A stretch of DNA of 64,000 nt from an uncultured Phycisphaerales bacterium (GTDB taxonomy: Bacteria > Planctomycetota > Phycisphaerae > Tepidisphaerales > Tepidisphaeraceae), in the NCBI GenBank assembly GCA_903871935.1, contig CAIQIQ010000019.1, forward strand, positions 1 through 64,000, written 5' to 3'. A model generated the notes under the pieces. That model ran no database searches, was not told the DNA's origin, and saw only the letters and a list, made by a program, of their open reading frames with translations. Shown piece by piece: positions 5,794 through 28,445 of the stretch (the first letter of the stretch is position 1; every line of letters begins with the position of its first letter). A program made the translations under genes and the position numbers.

Positions 5794-5875
5794 GCCGGCG
5801 CTCACGCTTTGGGGTCGCGTGCCGGCGGTGACGCTCATAAACAGTATGCGCCGGCGCTTACGCTTTCGGCTCGTA
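5794..5875. repeat. REP-like palindromic repeats, outer cluster
   Basis: Three copies of the element GCCGGCGCTWACGC-TTT-CGGCTCGT: a degenerate one at 5794-5817, a truncated one at 5821-5835 and a near-consensus one at 5850-5875. The consensus folds as an imperfect hairpin with GCG/CGC and CCG/CGG arms, a CTAA or CTTA loop and a TTT bulge. The region 5562-5892 otherwise contains no gene. Confidence 0.8.
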
Positions 5876-5892
5876 TGGTTCGCCCCATGCCC

Positions 5893-6500: not shown

Positions 6501-6559
6501 GCCGGCGCTGACGGTTTGGGTTTGCGAAGAAGAGCCGGCGCTTACGCTTTCGGCTCGTA
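6501..6559. repeat. REP-like repeats 3' of the RAYT pseudogene
   Basis: A degenerate copy at 6501-6524 and a full copy at 6534-6559. The full copy, with flanking GA, gives matching outer arms GAGCCG/CGGCTC enclosing GCG-CTTA-CGC and a TTT bulge. Confidence 0.8.
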
Positions 6560-6589
6560 TGTTTCGGGTCGTTGGGTTCGAGGTGCGGG

Positions 6590-7286
6590 TTAGGGGTTGG
6601 GGGTGTGGGTACGGCCGTCAAAACAGGCCATGGGCTCGCCCTGCTCGTTGAGGACGTAGTGGATGGCTTCGTCCAAAGAGTCCTGCGTGTTCAGCCAGCG
6701 CGTGCTCCCGTGGCGCGTCCAGTGCTCCCTGTCCGGTGGCTCGGTAAGGGCTTCGTGCAGCTTTCGGCTGGCCCAAGCTTTGAAATCGTTCATGACCGTT
6801 TCTGGCTTTGGTGCTTTGGGGTGATTGATACCGGCGCTAACGCTTTCGGCTCGTTTACCGGCGCTAACGCTTTCGGCTCGTTTGTCGGCGCTAACGCTTT
6901 CGGCTCGTACGCTTTCTTTCGGTTCGTACGGTGTTTGGGCGTTTGGTTTTGGGTGGTGCGGTGACGACGATATGAACGTGGTTGGTTCGCACGTGAACTG
7001 CCCAGAGTCTCCATCCCCGATGGGTTGATACTTCCTGGATTGTGTGCAGGACGATTCGTCGGCGTGCTTCGTCCAGGAAGTAGGGATCCTCACGCAACGA
7101 TTGCCGGCGCCATTCCTCGAGGTCGGGGTTGGCCGGCAGAAAAGGAGTGCCAGGGATGTTGTGGTCGCGATCGACTGAGGCGGGATCGCGACCGTGCAGC
7201 CAGGTGCCGTAGGTGGTGAAGGTGATGAAGTACGCCAATGGGACGGACATGGTGAGGAGGATATGAGGTTTGGGTTGGGTGCTCAA
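6590..7286 (-). pseudogene. REP-associated tyrosine transposase (RAYT), split by repeats
   Basis: The 5' half (from 7286 or the Met at 7250) reads FITFTTYGTWLHGRD, a typical RAYT start, and ends with the HUH motif N-H-V-H-I-V-V. In that frame it stops at 6891 inside repeat sequence. The 3' half continues in another frame down to 6590, with VMNDFKAWASRKLHEA, WTRHGSTRWLN and AIHYVLNEQGE, which carries the candidate catalytic tyrosine. Between the halves lie three tandem REP-like units (6830-6909) plus a partial one. The units are 27 bp and frame-neutral, so the frame change comes from the junction. These enzymes mobilise REP palindromes; this copy should not give a normal protein without frameshifting. 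Confidence 0.8.
6830..6928. repeat. Tandem array of three REP-like units inside the transposase gene
   Basis: Two identical 27-bp units at 6830-6856 and 6857-6883 (ACCGGCGCTAACGC...TCGTTT), a third at 6884-6909 with one early difference, and a partial unit to 6928. Read on the minus strand they encode the peptide repeat ESVSAGKRA. Confidence 0.9.
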
Positions 7287-7306
7287 TGGGTTGGTGGCGA
7301 AGAAGA

Positions 7307-7373
7307 GCCGGCGCTAACGCTTTCGGCTCGTTGTCCGTCGCTAACGCTTTCGGCTCGTACGTTTCGGCTCGTT
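7307..7373. repeat. REP-like repeats 5' of the RAYT pseudogene
   Basis: Full copy at 7307-7332, second copy at 7333-7359 and a partial copy at 7360-7373 ending at the stop codon of the neighbouring 401-residue gene. The transposase is therefore bracketed by the same element on both sides. Confidence 0.85.
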
Positions 7374-22790: not shown

Positions 22791-25700
22791 TCACGTGCTC
22801 ATATCCGACGGGTCGGCAAATGTCCCAGCTAAACTCGGCAGCACCCCGCCAAGGATGCCGCCATCCTGCAACAGGACAACGCTGCTTGTGCTCAGGTTCT
22901 TGGCGCCGCCCTGGGTGATCGTACCGGTGGTGTGGCCAGTTTTGATTGACCCGATCGTCGTGCCTACCGTCACATCCCCGGCCAGCGTGCCGGCCACTCG
23001 GATCGACTTGATCCCGCCGCTCACGCTCACATCCGCATCCAGGTCGCCGGGTAAACCCGTGACCATGCTGCTGGCCTTGCGGCCTTTGACGCTGATCGAA
23101 CCGATCGAAGGTGCACGCAGCGGGTCCGACACTCCATCGCTGTCCTGCCAGTCCAACAGCGACAACGACTTGATCGGCAGATCCTGCGACTCGATCCCGC
23201 CATCCACCACCTGTAGGAACTTCAGGCTCACCGCCGTCTTCGCCGCAGTTCGATCCAGATTGTTCAGCAGCACCTCGCCTCCCAGAACCACGCCTTTGGC
23301 GTTGATCGCTTTGATCAGGCCGTCGCTGCTTATCCCTCCTACCAGGTACTGACCATCTCCGCTCCTGCTCCGCTTCACGCTGATCGTCAGGACGCTCTTA
23401 CTGGTCGTCCCGATCAGGCTCAGTTGGTTGCCCCAGAGGGCTCCCAGGCCTCCTCCTGACAGCTTGAACGTCACCATATCGCCATCATCATCCACGGTGC
23501 TCAGGCTTACGGCCTTCTTCCCGCCCGTCAGCCCAAACTCCGGCAGGCTGCTGACATCGATCGTGAACTCCTTCTCTACCCACAGACCGGTGGAGGCCGT
23601 AGCGCGAATGCGGACCGCATACGTCCGCTCGGGGAGGTAGTTGAAGGTCATTGCCGTGCCCAGTTGATCGTCGTTGATCTGGAAACTGCTGTTGTCCTCC
23701 GAATTCGTCCCAGACACCAAGGCGTAGCTGAAGGTGTCCCCGGCGTTGGAACTCACCCCCGAGAGTACCCCAACCAACGTCCCGATCGGCTGATCCTCCG
23801 GAACACTGGCGTTGGAGAGCTCGATGTCCGTTGGCGGTTCGTTCACGTTGGTCACCGCGATGGTGAAGATCTTCTCATAGCTCAGACCCCCGGCGTCGGT
23901 GGTCTGCACCCGGATGCTGTAGCTGGTCTTTACTTCGTAATCGAAGCTCTCCGTCGTCTGTAACTGGTCGCCGCTGATGGTGAAGCTGCTGTTGTCCGTG
24001 CTGCCTTCGCCATCCACCAGAGAATAGCTGAAGCTGTCTCCGGCATCCTCATCCGTGCTGGAAAGTGTCCCAACCACCGTACCGGCAGGCTGGTTCTCCG
24101 GCACCGATGCATTATCCAGGGTAATGTCGGTGGGGGGATCGTTGACATCGCTCACTGCGATTACAAAGGCCTTCTCGAAGGCCATCCCACCCGCATCGGT
24201 GCTGCGAATGCGGATGCTGTAGCTGTTCTTGGCCTCGTAGTTGAACATCTCGGCCGTCACAAGCTGGGTGCCGGCGATGCTGAAGCTGGCATTGTCTTCG
24301 CTGCCCGAACCGGAGACCAGGCTGTAGGTAAAGCTGTCTCCCGCATCCGGGTCGGTACTGCTCAGATTGCCGACCAGCGTGCCCCACGGCTGATTCTCCG
24401 GAACTGAGGCATTATCCAGGGCAATGTCGGTCGGGGCATAGTGCAGCGTCGTGGCGCTGGCCGAAGCGCTGTTCGCCGAGGGAGCGCTGAGGTTATAGGC
24501 TCGCAAGCGAAAGTAATAGGTGCTGGCAGAGGTCAGACCGGTGGCGTTGAATGTCGTCACATTGGCGCCCACGGCACTGGTGATCAGGTTGGTGCTAAAA
24601 GCGCTGTCAGAGGCCCGGTCAATATAAAAGCCGATCTCGTCGGAACTGTTGTCCGTCCACGACAGATTGATCTGCGTCTGCGAAGTCACCGTGGCATTGA
24701 GTCCCGAAGGGGCATTGGGCAACGTCGTGGCGCTGGCCGGAGCACTGTTGGCCGAGGGGCCAACACTGTTATAGGCGCGCACCCGGAAGTAATAGGTGTT
24801 GCTAGGCGACAGGCCCATGGCGCTGAGGATCCTTACGTTGGCCCCCACAGTGCTGGTCAGGACATTGCTGCTAAAGCCGCTGTCGGAGGCGCGGTCGATG
24901 TAAAAGCCATCCTCATTGCTGGAGTTATCCGTCCAGGAAAGGTCGATCTGTGTCTGCGAGATCACGGTCGGCACCAAGCCTGAGGGCGCTAAGGGCGCCA
25001 CCTGCAGGGTTGTGGCGCTGGCCGTATTGCTGTTGGCGGAGGGGCCGCCGCTGCCATAGGCACGCACCTGGAAGTAGTAGGTGGTGTTGGGCAACAACCC
25101 CATGGCGTCAAACGTGGTCGTGTTGGCGGGGATGGTGCTGGTCACCAGGTTGCTGCTGAAACCGCTGTTGGTCGCTCGATCCAGATAAAAGCCCATCTCG
25201 TTGCTGGAGTTGTCTGTCCAGGAAAGGTTAATCTGCGAGAAGGAGATCACCGTTGCGCTCAGGCCCGAAGGGACCGATGGCGGGTAGTCCAGCGTGGTAG
25301 CGCTGGCCGGGGCGCTGTTGCCCGAGAGACCGCCATCGTTATAGGCGCGCACCTGGAAGTAGTAGGTGGTGCTGGACGAGAGCCCCGTGACGCTCAGCGT
25401 CGTCACGTTGGCGCCGACTGGGGTAGTTACCACAATCGCGGCGAAGCCGCTGTCGGTGGATCGATCCACATAAAAGCCCAATTCGTTGTTGGAATTGTCC
25501 GTCCAGGAGAGGTTGATCTGCGCCTGCGACATCGCCGTCGCCGTCAGCGCGGACGGGGCGACTGGTAGTCCGACCAGCGTCGTGGCGCTGGCGGTATTGC
25601 TGTTGGGCGAGGGGCTGATCGCGTTGTAGGCACGTACCTGGAAGTAATAGGTGGTGCCAGAAGACAGCCCGGTGGCGTTGAATGTCATCACGTTGGCGGC

Positions 25701-28445
25701 CACCGGGGTGGTCACCAGATTGGTGGTAAAGCTGCTGTCGGTGGATCGATCCAGGTAGAAGCCATCCTCATTGCTGGAGTTGTCCGTCCAGGAGAGGCTG
25801 ATCTGCGTTTGGGAAATCACCGTGGCACTGAGCCCCGAGGGGGCTGCCGGGCCAGGGGCAAGGGTGATGGCGCTGGCCGGATTGCTGTTGGCCGAGGCGT
25901 TGGGCCCATTGGTAGCGCGGACACGGAAGTAGTAGAGCGTGGTGGGATTCAGCCCGGTGATCGAAGCGACCGTGGCGTTCTGGCCGGCCGTGGTGGTTAC
26001 CAGGTTTTGCGTGAAGGCAGGATCCGTCGCCCGGTCAATGGCAAAACCGGTCTCATTACTGGAATTATCCGCCCAACTCAGGTTGATCTGTGAAGAGTTG
26101 ACGGCAGTGGCAGCAAGGTTGCTGGGGCCGACGCCACCCTCGATAAGACCGCCGCCGAAGGCGGCAACCCAGACATCCTGGGAGTTGTAGGGGTTGATGA
26201 ATGCCCGCTCGTTCCAGGCAAAGGGGAAGGAAGTCACATTGGTAATATTGGCAGCTGAGAAGCCCGGTACCGTAACATCGGGGGCATACGCGAGACCGGC
26301 GTTGCCGCTGACCACGTACATTTCTTTGGTGCCCGCATTGATCGTGACTGAGCTGACGTCCGGATAGGGAACACCAAACACGCCCGCAAGGTTCATCCTT
26401 GTCCAGGTCACGCCGCGATCTGTGGTGCGGTAGAGATCGCCCATGCCATTGCCGTTGCCTCCCCAGGCGTTAAAGACTCCGGCGTACCAGGTGTTCTGGG
26501 TCGGATCGGTGGGGTCGATTGCTATCTGCATCGTGTACCAGTGCATGGTGGGCCCGGTGCGGTCCGTCCAGGTGGCACCACCATCGGTGCTGACGAACAC
26601 ACCGCTGCTGTCGGTGAAAACGTTGCCCGCCATCCGGCCCGAATAGGTGGCGACCAGGGTTCCATCGTTCAGAACTTGAAGGATGTAGGCATGGCCTTGC
26701 GTCCGCGGAGGATTGGCCAGCTTGGTCCAGGTGGATGCCGCGCCCAGATTCAGGTTGCTGGTTACCCAGATGCCGCCGTTGCTGCCCACGCCGTCCACTG
26801 CGCATGCGTACATCCGATTGGCATTGTTCGGATCGAGCTGAATCCAAATGACCGGCACGCCGAAACTGTGAATGGGGGTAGGCGACCAGGTTGCCCCCTG
26901 GTCGGCCGACACCACCACCGCGCCGGTTTGCCAGCTTGGATTGCAGGTGGCATCGGTCAGGTGGGTCGATTGGTACATGTCGTGCACATTGCTGGTCGCG
27001 CCGTACAGCATGCCCCCGGAATAGATGGTCTTGTACAGTGTGTTGGTTACAGCGCCGTTCCACGTCGGGAACGACCAGGATACTCCGCCATTGGTGCTGA
27101 TAGCGCCATTGATGTCCGTGTAGCCGGCCATGATGTCCGTCGGACTTGTCCAGGTGAGGTAGTGAGCACTGGTCATGGTCAATCCAACACCCGTGTACAT
27201 CTCATGCTGCGGGCTAAGCTGGCCCATCGGATTGCTGTTAGCCTGGTTCTCGTACACCTGGTGCCAGGTGGTACCGCCGTCGCTGGTCAGATGGACCCAA
27301 GCTTCGGATATGATCGCCTTGTTGACGTCTGTCGGACAGACTGAGAAACCGTAGGCTGGTCCGCCCCAGCTCCAGTCAAAATCTCCGCCCTGTCCTTCGG
27401 ATGCCGTGGCGATGTTCGCATTGGGAATGTTCGTGGGAACATCCGATGGCCTGGTGAAGAATGTGTCATTCCATGTAACACCCCCATCCGTGCTTTTGAG
27501 TACATCCGGGCGCCCATTGGGGTCGCCGCCGCCCAGGTATGCGACAGTGATGTTGCCTTGGGCCATGGCGACAAAGTATGGAGTCTCTCCGGAACGCACG
27601 CCCGCGCTCCCATTGACCCAGCTTCCGCCAACGTCCAGACGATAAAGTCCGTTGTAGGTCAGGTCCCTGGGGCTGTAGCCATCCCAGAAGCTGTCGCTGG
27701 TCGTCAGAGCCAGCAGGCGTACCGTGCTGCCCTGTTTGGCGCCCGTGAACGACATGATGTTGGCGGTGGCTGGCTGCTGCGCTGACAGAGTGAAAGTGCT
27801 GCCGCCATTGCTGGAGGTCAGGAAGCCTTTGTTGCTGCCCACATAGACGTTGCTGCCGTCAAAGAACGCCCCGCCGACAGCCAGATTGCTCGAGGAGTAG
27901 GCCGTGGTGAAACTCGTGCCGCCATTGCTGGAGAAGTACAGATTGGTCCCATCGCATCCCAGAATATTGGTCGTCGTTGACGGATCAGCGCCAATCCAGA
28001 TGGCCGTGCCATACGTCCACCCGCTCAAGGCTGTCCAGGTTGCTCCGTCGTCGGTGCTCTTTACCGGCCCGGCATTGGTGGGGCCGATATACAGAACATT
28101 GGGGTCGCTGGTGAATACCACTTGCGAGTTGGCTCCGCCATTGACTCCGCCAATGCTGTTGTGGAAGTTCACCATCTGCCAGCTCTGGCCAAAGTTCCTG
28201 GAGTGGTAGATGCCGCTCATGTCACTACAGGTCCAGAGATCCTGACCGTTGGGAGAGATCTCCGCCCAGAGCGTCGCCCCGCCTCCGCCAGGACCCGTGG
28301 GCGTCCAGAGCGTCGGCATCGCCAGTAGAATCCGAGACTCCATTGCCTCGATCCGTGGTTGGGCGGTGGCGAGCCTCAGAGCAGTGGATCGAGTGCGGGA
28401 CAAACGTGGGGTCGAATGACCGATAACGTTGCTAAACAACGGCAT
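22791..28445 (-). CDS. Giant surface protein: BNR propeller, six FN3, three cadherin-like domains
   Basis: 1,884 residues from ATG 28445, fixed by GGAGG-TTCAC. The N-terminus carries RIEAMESRILLA (about 32-43), the planctomycete export-associated motif. Residues ~45-770 form a sialidase/VPS10/GH74-type propeller with many S-x-D-G-G-x-T-W Asp-box repeats (KSTDDGATW, KSTDGGVTW, VSTDGGATW). Six FN3 domains follow (~773-1335), each with INLSWTDNSSNE and TTYYFQVRAYN. Three cadherin-like repeats (~1335-1630) begin PTDI-x-L-x-NASVPE-x-QP. The last ~250 residues form a glycine/serine-rich beta domain (SIGSISVKG, IGSIKTGHTTG) typical of planctomycete surface proteins. Probably secreted or cell-surface; enzymatic xyloglucanase-like activity is possible but unproven. 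Confidence 0.9.
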   Translation of the reverse strand: MPLFSNVIGHSTPRLSRTRSTALRLATAQPRIEAMESRILLAMPTLWTPTGPGGGGATLWAEISPNGQDLWTCSDMSGIYHSRNFGQSWQMVNFHNSIGGVNGGANSQVVFTSDPNVLYIGPTNAGPVKSTDDGATWTALSGWTYGTAIWIGADPSTTTNILGCDGTNLYFSSNGGTSFTTAYSSSNLAVGGAFFDGSNVYVGSNKGFLTSSNGGSTFTLSAQQPATANIMSFTGAKQGSTVRLLALTTSDSFWDGYSPRDLTYNGLYRLDVGGSWVNGSAGVRSGETPYFVAMAQGNITVAYLGGGDPNGRPDVLKSTDGGVTWNDTFFTRPSDVPTNIPNANIATASEGQGGDFDWSWGGPAYGFSVCPTDVNKAIISEAWVHLTSDGGTTWHQVYENQANSNPMGQLSPQHEMYTGVGLTMTSAHYLTWTSPTDIMAGYTDINGAISTNGGVSWSFPTWNGAVTNTLYKTIYSGGMLYGATSNVHDMYQSTHLTDATCNPSWQTGAVVVSADQGATWSPTPIHSFGVPVIWIQLDPNNANRMYACAVDGVGSNGGIWVTSNLNLGAASTWTKLANPPRTQGHAYILQVLNDGTLVATYSGRMAGNVFTDSSGVFVSTDGGATWTDRTGPTMHWYTMQIAIDPTDPTQNTWYAGVFNAWGGNGNGMGDLYRTTDRGVTWTRMNLAGVFGVPYPDVSSVTINAGTKEMYVVSGNAGLAYAPDVTVPGFSAANITNVTSFPFAWNERAFINPYNSQDVWVAAFGGGLIEGGVGPSNLAATAVNSSQINLSWADNSSNETGFAIDRATDPAFTQNLVTTTAGQNATVASITGLNPTTLYYFRVRATNGPNASANSNPASAITLAPGPAAPSGLSATVISQTQISLSWTDNSSNEDGFYLDRSTDSSFTTNLVTTPVAANVMTFNATGLSSGTTYYFQVRAYNAISPSPNSNTASATTLVGLPVAPSALTATAMSQAQINLSWTDNSNNELGFYVDRSTDSGFAAIVVTTPVGANVTTLSVTGLSSSTTYYFQVRAYNDGGLSGNSAPASATTLDYPPSVPSGLSATVISFSQINLSWTDNSSNEMGFYLDRATNSGFSSNLVTSTIPANTTTFDAMGLLPNTTYYFQVRAYGSGGPSANSNTASATTLQVAPLAPSGLVPTVISQTQIDLSWTDNSSNEDGFYIDRASDSGFSSNVLTSTVGANVRILSAMGLSPSNTYYFRVRAYNSVGPSANSAPASATTLPNAPSGLNATVTSQTQINLSWTDNSSDEIGFYIDRASDSAFSTNLITSAVGANVTTFNATGLTSASTYYFRLRAYNLSAPSANSASASATTLHYAPTDIALDNASVPENQPWGTLVGNLSSTDPDAGDSFTYSLVSGSGSEDNASFSIAGTQLVTAEMFNYEAKNSYSIRIRSTDAGGMAFEKAFVIAVSDVNDPPTDITLDNASVPENQPAGTVVGTLSSTDEDAGDSFSYSLVDGEGSTDNSSFTISGDQLQTTESFDYEVKTSYSIRVQTTDAGGLSYEKIFTIAVTNVNEPPTDIELSNASVPEDQPIGTLVGVLSGVSSNAGDTFSYALVSGTNSEDNSSFQINDDQLGTAMTFNYLPERTYAVRIRATASTGLWVEKEFTIDVSSLPEFGLTGGKKAVSLSTVDDDGDMVTFKLSGGGLGALWGNQLSLIGTTSKSVLTISVKRSRSGDGQYLVGGISSDGLIKAINAKGVVLGGEVLLNNLDRTAAKTAVSLKFLQVVDGGIESQDLPIKSLSLLDWQDSDGVSDPLRAPSIGSISVKGRKASSMVTGLPGDLDADVSVSGGIKSIRVAGTLAGDVTVGTTIGSIKTGHTTGTITQGGAKNLSTSSVVLLQDGGILGGVLPSLAGTFADPSDMST
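24440..26130 (-). repeat. Six tandem ~282-bp repeats coding FN3 domains
   Basis: In-gene duplication visible at DNA level: GTTGTCCGTCCA-GGA and GTAGTAGGTGGTG-type segments recur about every 280 bp. These are candidate sites for recombination-driven domain number change. Confidence 0.8.

Follow-up and report, generated by a model that had tools for sequence, protein, structure and literature searches.

A HuH/Tyr transposase gene on the minus strand of the window, a 64,000-nucleotide stretch of an uncultured Phycisphaerales contig, is broken into two pieces (at approximately 7250-6590), with an array of short tandem repeats at the break. The locus raises the question of where this array came from and whether the gene can still give rise to a working transposase. 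We consider it likely that the gene, a class 3 transposase, has been interrupted by an array of its own cognate REP repeats, copied from the cluster that flanks it. The evidence base is one assembly of one species, a 6.3-Mb draft genome in 172 contigs.

A class 3 transposase gene in two pieces

An earlier note, made from the sequence alone, described the HuH and Tyr halves of the transposase as lying out of frame with each other and as being joined by three tandem 27-bp units plus a partial one. Our analysis of open reading frames and repeats agrees with this description and gives the following features.

7286-6891, minus strand: ORF of 131 aa, HuH half of a class 3 TnpA_Y1 (RAYT-like), motif RTNHVHIVV
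6590-6808, minus strand: Tyr half, within the ORF 7093-6590 of 167 aa, KPETVMNDFKAW...WTRHGSTRW...AIHYVLNEQG
6829-6909, minus strand: three tandem 27-bp REP units, copies at 6830, 6857 and 6884 (96% matches, TRF score 146)
6910-6931, minus strand: array tail CGTACGCTTTCTTTCGGTTCGTACGG, common by alignment to the upstream flanking cluster (~7360-7372), with an extra 5 nt
7307-7372: REP cluster on the upstream flank, made of two 27-bp units (7307-7333, 7334-7360) and a tail like that of the array
6534-6566: downstream flanking REP unit (6534-6560)
5794-5882: two more REP units downstream, partly degenerate (5797-5816, 5850-5874)

The likely true start of the HuH half is the ATG at 7250 (MSVPLAYFITF). 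The Tyr half, which begins with an ATG as well (MNDFKAW), lies in a frame +1 to that of the HuH half.

The gene had been taken for a RAYT-type transposase, and both the class-3 profile and the motifs agree. The HuH half matches Y1_Tnp (E=3.8e-6) and the class-3 profile (E=1.1e-45), and positions 100-167 of the latter match the Tyr half (E=7.8e-23), which alone gave no match in Pfam. On the NCBIfam RAYT model NF047646 the HuH half scores 22.8 bits and does not reach the curated cut-off of 80 bits, a shortfall expected for half of a gene that belongs to class 3 and not to class 2; it is also well under the NCBIfam IS200 cut-off.

Class 3 TnpA_Y1 proteins are rare, mostly planctomycete and REPtron-like, and are defined by the motifs NHVH, W[TA] and YV[VI][AENY]EQ, an extended N-terminus (155-aa profile) and flanking repeats with the 5' foot CnGA (Quentin et al., 2018; PMC6006769). 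Judged by its sequence, the split protein fits this class. It contains NHVH within RTNHVHIVV, both H being invariant in our alignment, and the extended conserved N-terminus YFITFTTYGTWLHG, in which every invariant column is kept. Its Y motif, YVLNEQ, is one conservative change away from the published form, with WT and Y....Q retained.

We found 51 related loci, nearly all of them in Planctomycetota, and a tree built from two conserved blocks groups the window gene with L117 and the gene of the same-family genome G018 (support 0.95). The AlphaFold model of a relative (L022, pLDDT 86) has a strand at 91-97 and a helix at 102-121, and Foldseek with this model returns structures of ISDra2, IS608 and E. 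coli TnpAREP (4er8). The genome holds 14 Y1_Tnp matches, of which one is class 3, and a second intact cognate RAYT is absent from these matches.

The repeats are cognate to the transposase

Genome-wide repeat counts were made by pattern searches. Four exact copies of the 20-mer REP core occur in the 6.3-Mb genome, all at the transposase locus; with one mismatch or fewer there are seven copies at the locus against one elsewhere, besides a few more diverged copies. The reversed-pattern control for the related REP pattern gave 0 hits in this genome, and the concentration of copies at the locus is not due to chance. Across 26 genomes of the family, the REP pattern gave 11, 12 and 16 copies in G000, G018 and G022, the only ones in which this close RAYT is present, and 0-1 copies in the other 23, with 0-3 hits for the reversed pattern. 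On these sequence patterns, the REP family is the cognate family of this transposase. The earlier attribution of the repeats to the gene's own family is thereby upheld, copy counts above one being limited to the family genomes that bear this RAYT, and the locus shows the general hallmark of a RAYT or REPtron, a dispersed REP family of its own that flanks the transposase gene.

The repeat had also been placed around the gene at 5794-5875, 6501-6559 and 7307-7373. Copies are found there, although the one near 6502 is weak and degenerate. All 8 REP copies in the window lie on one strand, and the inverted, hairpin-forming pair of a REPIN was not found among them; in the relatives L117, L118 and L028, inverted REP pairs are present on both sides of the gene. 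The tag is CGGC in 7/8 local copies and CGTC in 60/69 copies of the relatives, and the CGGC form alters the predicted REP hairpin. Dispersed REP copies in this genome keep CGTC, and none is of the local CGGC type.

Direct repeats of ~46 bp (6517-6562 and 7287-7334), which reach beyond the REP unit, enclose the split gene. Recombination between them could delete or duplicate the whole of it.

No array in the intact relatives

In 33/33 intact class-3 matches, HVH and the FK of helix C are 15-16 aa apart. From the HVH codon to the PE codons we counted 166 nt in the window versus 24-27 nt in relatives, a net gain in the loop of 139 or 142 nt. Either value is 3n+1, so that the reading frame is lost and no continuous transposase is encoded. 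On the structural model, the insert maps to the loop that connects strand beta3 (HuH) with helix alphaC.

The earlier note had suggested looking for intact related RAYTs without the array. Such genes exist in two genomes of the family (G018, G022) and, outside it, in L117 and L118 from the same phylum, and the loop is short in every match measured, which identifies the array as an insertion. The possibility that it is an ancestral linker is ruled out, as no relative examined carries it. The genes flanking the transposase gave no synteny matches in those loci of the relatives that were retrieved.

Several candidates for a similar break were rejected. In L147 (G161) the frame stays open at the same loop, and the gene has probably diverged or been truncated at the end of the contig; L148, L149, L150, L151 and L070 are shortened or decayed genes with an array-free loop. 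We likewise discarded the resemblance between the HuH-frame read-through RTERKRTSRK and the helix MNDFKAWASRK, a coincidental weak likeness produced by the REP read in the HuH frame, which let profile searches extend past the array.

Probable local origin of the array

The closest relative of the internal array is the upstream flanking cluster at 7307-7372. Positions 6858-6927 align with 7308-7372 over ~65 bp, shared tail included, so the likeness continues beyond the REP unit, and both carry the local CGGC type. Because the array resembles this cluster and not the dispersed copies, its source is more likely local, by copying or recombination, than distant. The earlier suggestion that the element was inserting into, or recombining at, its own gene can be refined accordingly: the insertion stands, and a local event (copying or recombination) accounts for it better than transposition from a distant site.

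An origin without any flanking copy can also be imagined, in which the array grew in place by slippage from a chance match. The sequence AGCCGAAAGC at the ASRKL codons does match the REP core over 10 nt, and the equal length of the tandem units suggests slippage expansion. However, the array contains the tail sequence of the flanking cluster and is located upstream of the ASRKL match, not at that match, making growth in place extremely unlikely in our judgment.

The reading that we favor is copying from the flanking cluster. The system is a REPtron, in which one class 3 HuH/Tyr transposase gene is accompanied by its cognate REPs, and a REP array was probably copied from its own flanking cluster into the loop that separates the HuH strand from helix C. 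The array plus extra junction sequence adds the 139-142 nt and breaks the frame. Any of three processes could account for the local placement: recombination, slippage during replication, or a local event mediated by the RAYT. The enzyme is probably inactive now, with its repeats no longer spreading. A ~30-bp duplication of the target or loop around the array, suggestive by eye, was not significant when compared with dinucleotide shuffles (p ~0.09).

Fate of the split gene

All 21 invariant class-3 residues are kept across both halves (21/21), together with 19/20 of the near-invariant ones, counting a V that is just past the trimmed HuH piece and present in the ORF. As every invariant residue is still there, the break looks recent; taken by itself, the residue conservation points to either a recent break or retained function. 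We infer loss of function from the frame break in a gene whose two halves are both still open and fully conserved, and the gene is probably freshly dead. The earlier suggestion that the array would inactivate the gene stands with respect to the broken reading frame and is tempered by the open halves and their conserved residues.

The earlier note offered a tolerated linker as its alternative. In the form weighed here, the array is an in-frame linker of ~47 residues, and the frame break an assembly error or a minority variant. Such a linker has a precedent, since REP insertions inside tnpAREP genes, in the HuH-Tyr interval and with the frame kept, have been described and called unique to subclass 2.4 (PMC6006769). 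The Tyr frame of the window gene runs open through every REP unit, translated as ESVSAGKRA, while the HuH frame meets a stop there, and the catalytic residues are all kept in the split gene. Yet the frame that is kept in subclass 2.4 is lost here, no homopolymer at the junction exceeds 4 nt, and no convincing recoding signal was seen. We regard the in-frame linker as unlikely, although the apparent frequent tolerance of class-3 elements and their repeats as translated inserts elsewhere (see below) keeps it alive.

Alternatively, the gene may still be expressed, either by a +1 frameshift between 6971 and 6894 or as halves that are made separately and cooperate. The overlap of the two open frames would allow a shift, the Tyr half could start from its own ATG, and neither half shows decay of its conserved residues. 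In dimers of the IS200/IS605 family, the Tyr of a subunit works with the HuH of its partner. Judged by eye, however, the junction has no strong slippery site or Shine-Dalgarno sequence, and the best-studied RAYT, E. coli TnpAREP, appears monomeric (PMC6006769), so that continued expression by either route seems very unlikely.

The earlier idea that loss of the gene would freeze the repeat family is suggestive at most. Clear REP copies off the locus number 3 in this genome versus 6-7 in intact relatives, the CGTC tag is mostly lost locally, and the local type is absent from the dispersed copies. Against this, the total of 11 copies is not clearly below the 12-16 of the genomes with an intact gene. 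The locus may serve as a natural experiment on the course of a REP family after loss of its mobiliser, with drift of the tag, loss of inverted pairs and no new dispersed copies as the traits to follow.

Comparison with known systems

Like the published class 3 TnpA_Y1 and their REPtron-like systems (PMC6006769), the window gene combines NHVH, WT, Y....Q and a long N-terminus with about one copy per genome, flanking repeats and relatives in Planctomycetota. Unlike them, it is split by its own repeat, has L in place of V/I in YVLNEQ, and has local copies with CGGC and not CGTC. The 5' foot of its repeat is ACGA, as in the nearest clade, and not CnGA; in L024, L026, L027, L028 and L031 the foot is CGGA, CAGA or CCGA.

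As in tnpAREP genes of subclass 2.4, cognate REPs lie between HuH and Tyr, and the beta3-alphaC loop is a named variable insertion site in that subclass. Unlike in subclass 2.4, the frame is not preserved, and the protein falls outside class 2, having WT and YVLNEQ with no WQ and no NP after the Tyr. What is new here is REP self-insertion in class 3, and with the frame lost; the kind of event was already known in subclass 2.4. Self-insertion of REPs between HuH and Tyr thus recurs in a separate class and is not unique to subclass 2.4, and an out-of-frame case that retains all invariant residues captures a possible stage in the death of such a system.

The REPINs and RAYTs of Pseudomonas (Bertels and Rainey, 2011; PMC3116915) similarly pair a single-copy transposase with cognate short palindromic repeats and tandem REP clusters, but the window copies are all direct, with no inverted pairs, and number ~11 instead of hundreds. 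The intragenic GTAG/CGTC REPs (Di Nocera et al., 2013; PMC3733652) resemble those studied here in that they are located in coding sequences and translated as extra residues. No transposase linked to the CGTC repeats was found in that study; the planctomycete REPs, which have the CGTC tag in relatives, do flank a transposase, and their different stem sequence rules out identity with the CGTC families.

Class 3 RAYTs embedded in host genes

Among the related loci, class 3 HuH/Tyr domains with both motifs are also found in frame within host genes.

Within valyl-tRNA synthetase: L030:1375-5403, L033:1507-5559, L040:967-5553, L041:1630-5277, L046:1525-5607
Within valyl-tRNA synthetase: L045:142-4260, L154:1382-5416, L156:1121-5971, L158:681-5423
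Within PglX (DUF7008 and Eco57I methylase): L153:299-5140, minus strand
Within a DUF1156 methylase: L157:1348-5883; L159:205-5220, minus strand

The domains in valyl-tRNA synthetase are bordered by translated repeat peptides, as are those in PglX and the DUF1156 methylase, and in L158 the RAYT occupies a different site of valyl-tRNA synthetase than in the other loci. In G447 (a one-contig genome), G092, G451, G012 and G078, no valyl-tRNA synthetase was found other than the ORF that holds the RAYT. A second REP family, GAGCCGCGACCGTGAGGGAGCGG, one strand of which reads PLPHGRGS, is present at 5-340 copies per genome in 10/12 genomes searched (G447, G078, G092 and G372 included), with 0 hits for the reversed control, and an inverted pair of it surrounds the embedded RAYT within the host ORF in G447 and G078. 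Our literature search on class-3 RAYTs embedded in host genes found no paper in the collection covered.

These loci suggest that translated inserts of class-3 elements and their repeats are often tolerated. A bolder reading would be that it is routine for class 3 REPtrons to place copies of their repeats in proteins, where these are translated as linkers (valyl-tRNA synthetase, PglX, the DUF1156 methylase and their own transposase), and that the window copy is a working or regulated self-insertion, operating via recoding or two cooperating pieces, and not a dead gene. We think this improbable, and a freshly dead gene is the reading that we retain.

Elsewhere in the window, at 24444-25897, a 285-bp unit, which in frame would amount to 95 codons, is repeated in tandem ~5 times; this is apparently a repeated protein domain.
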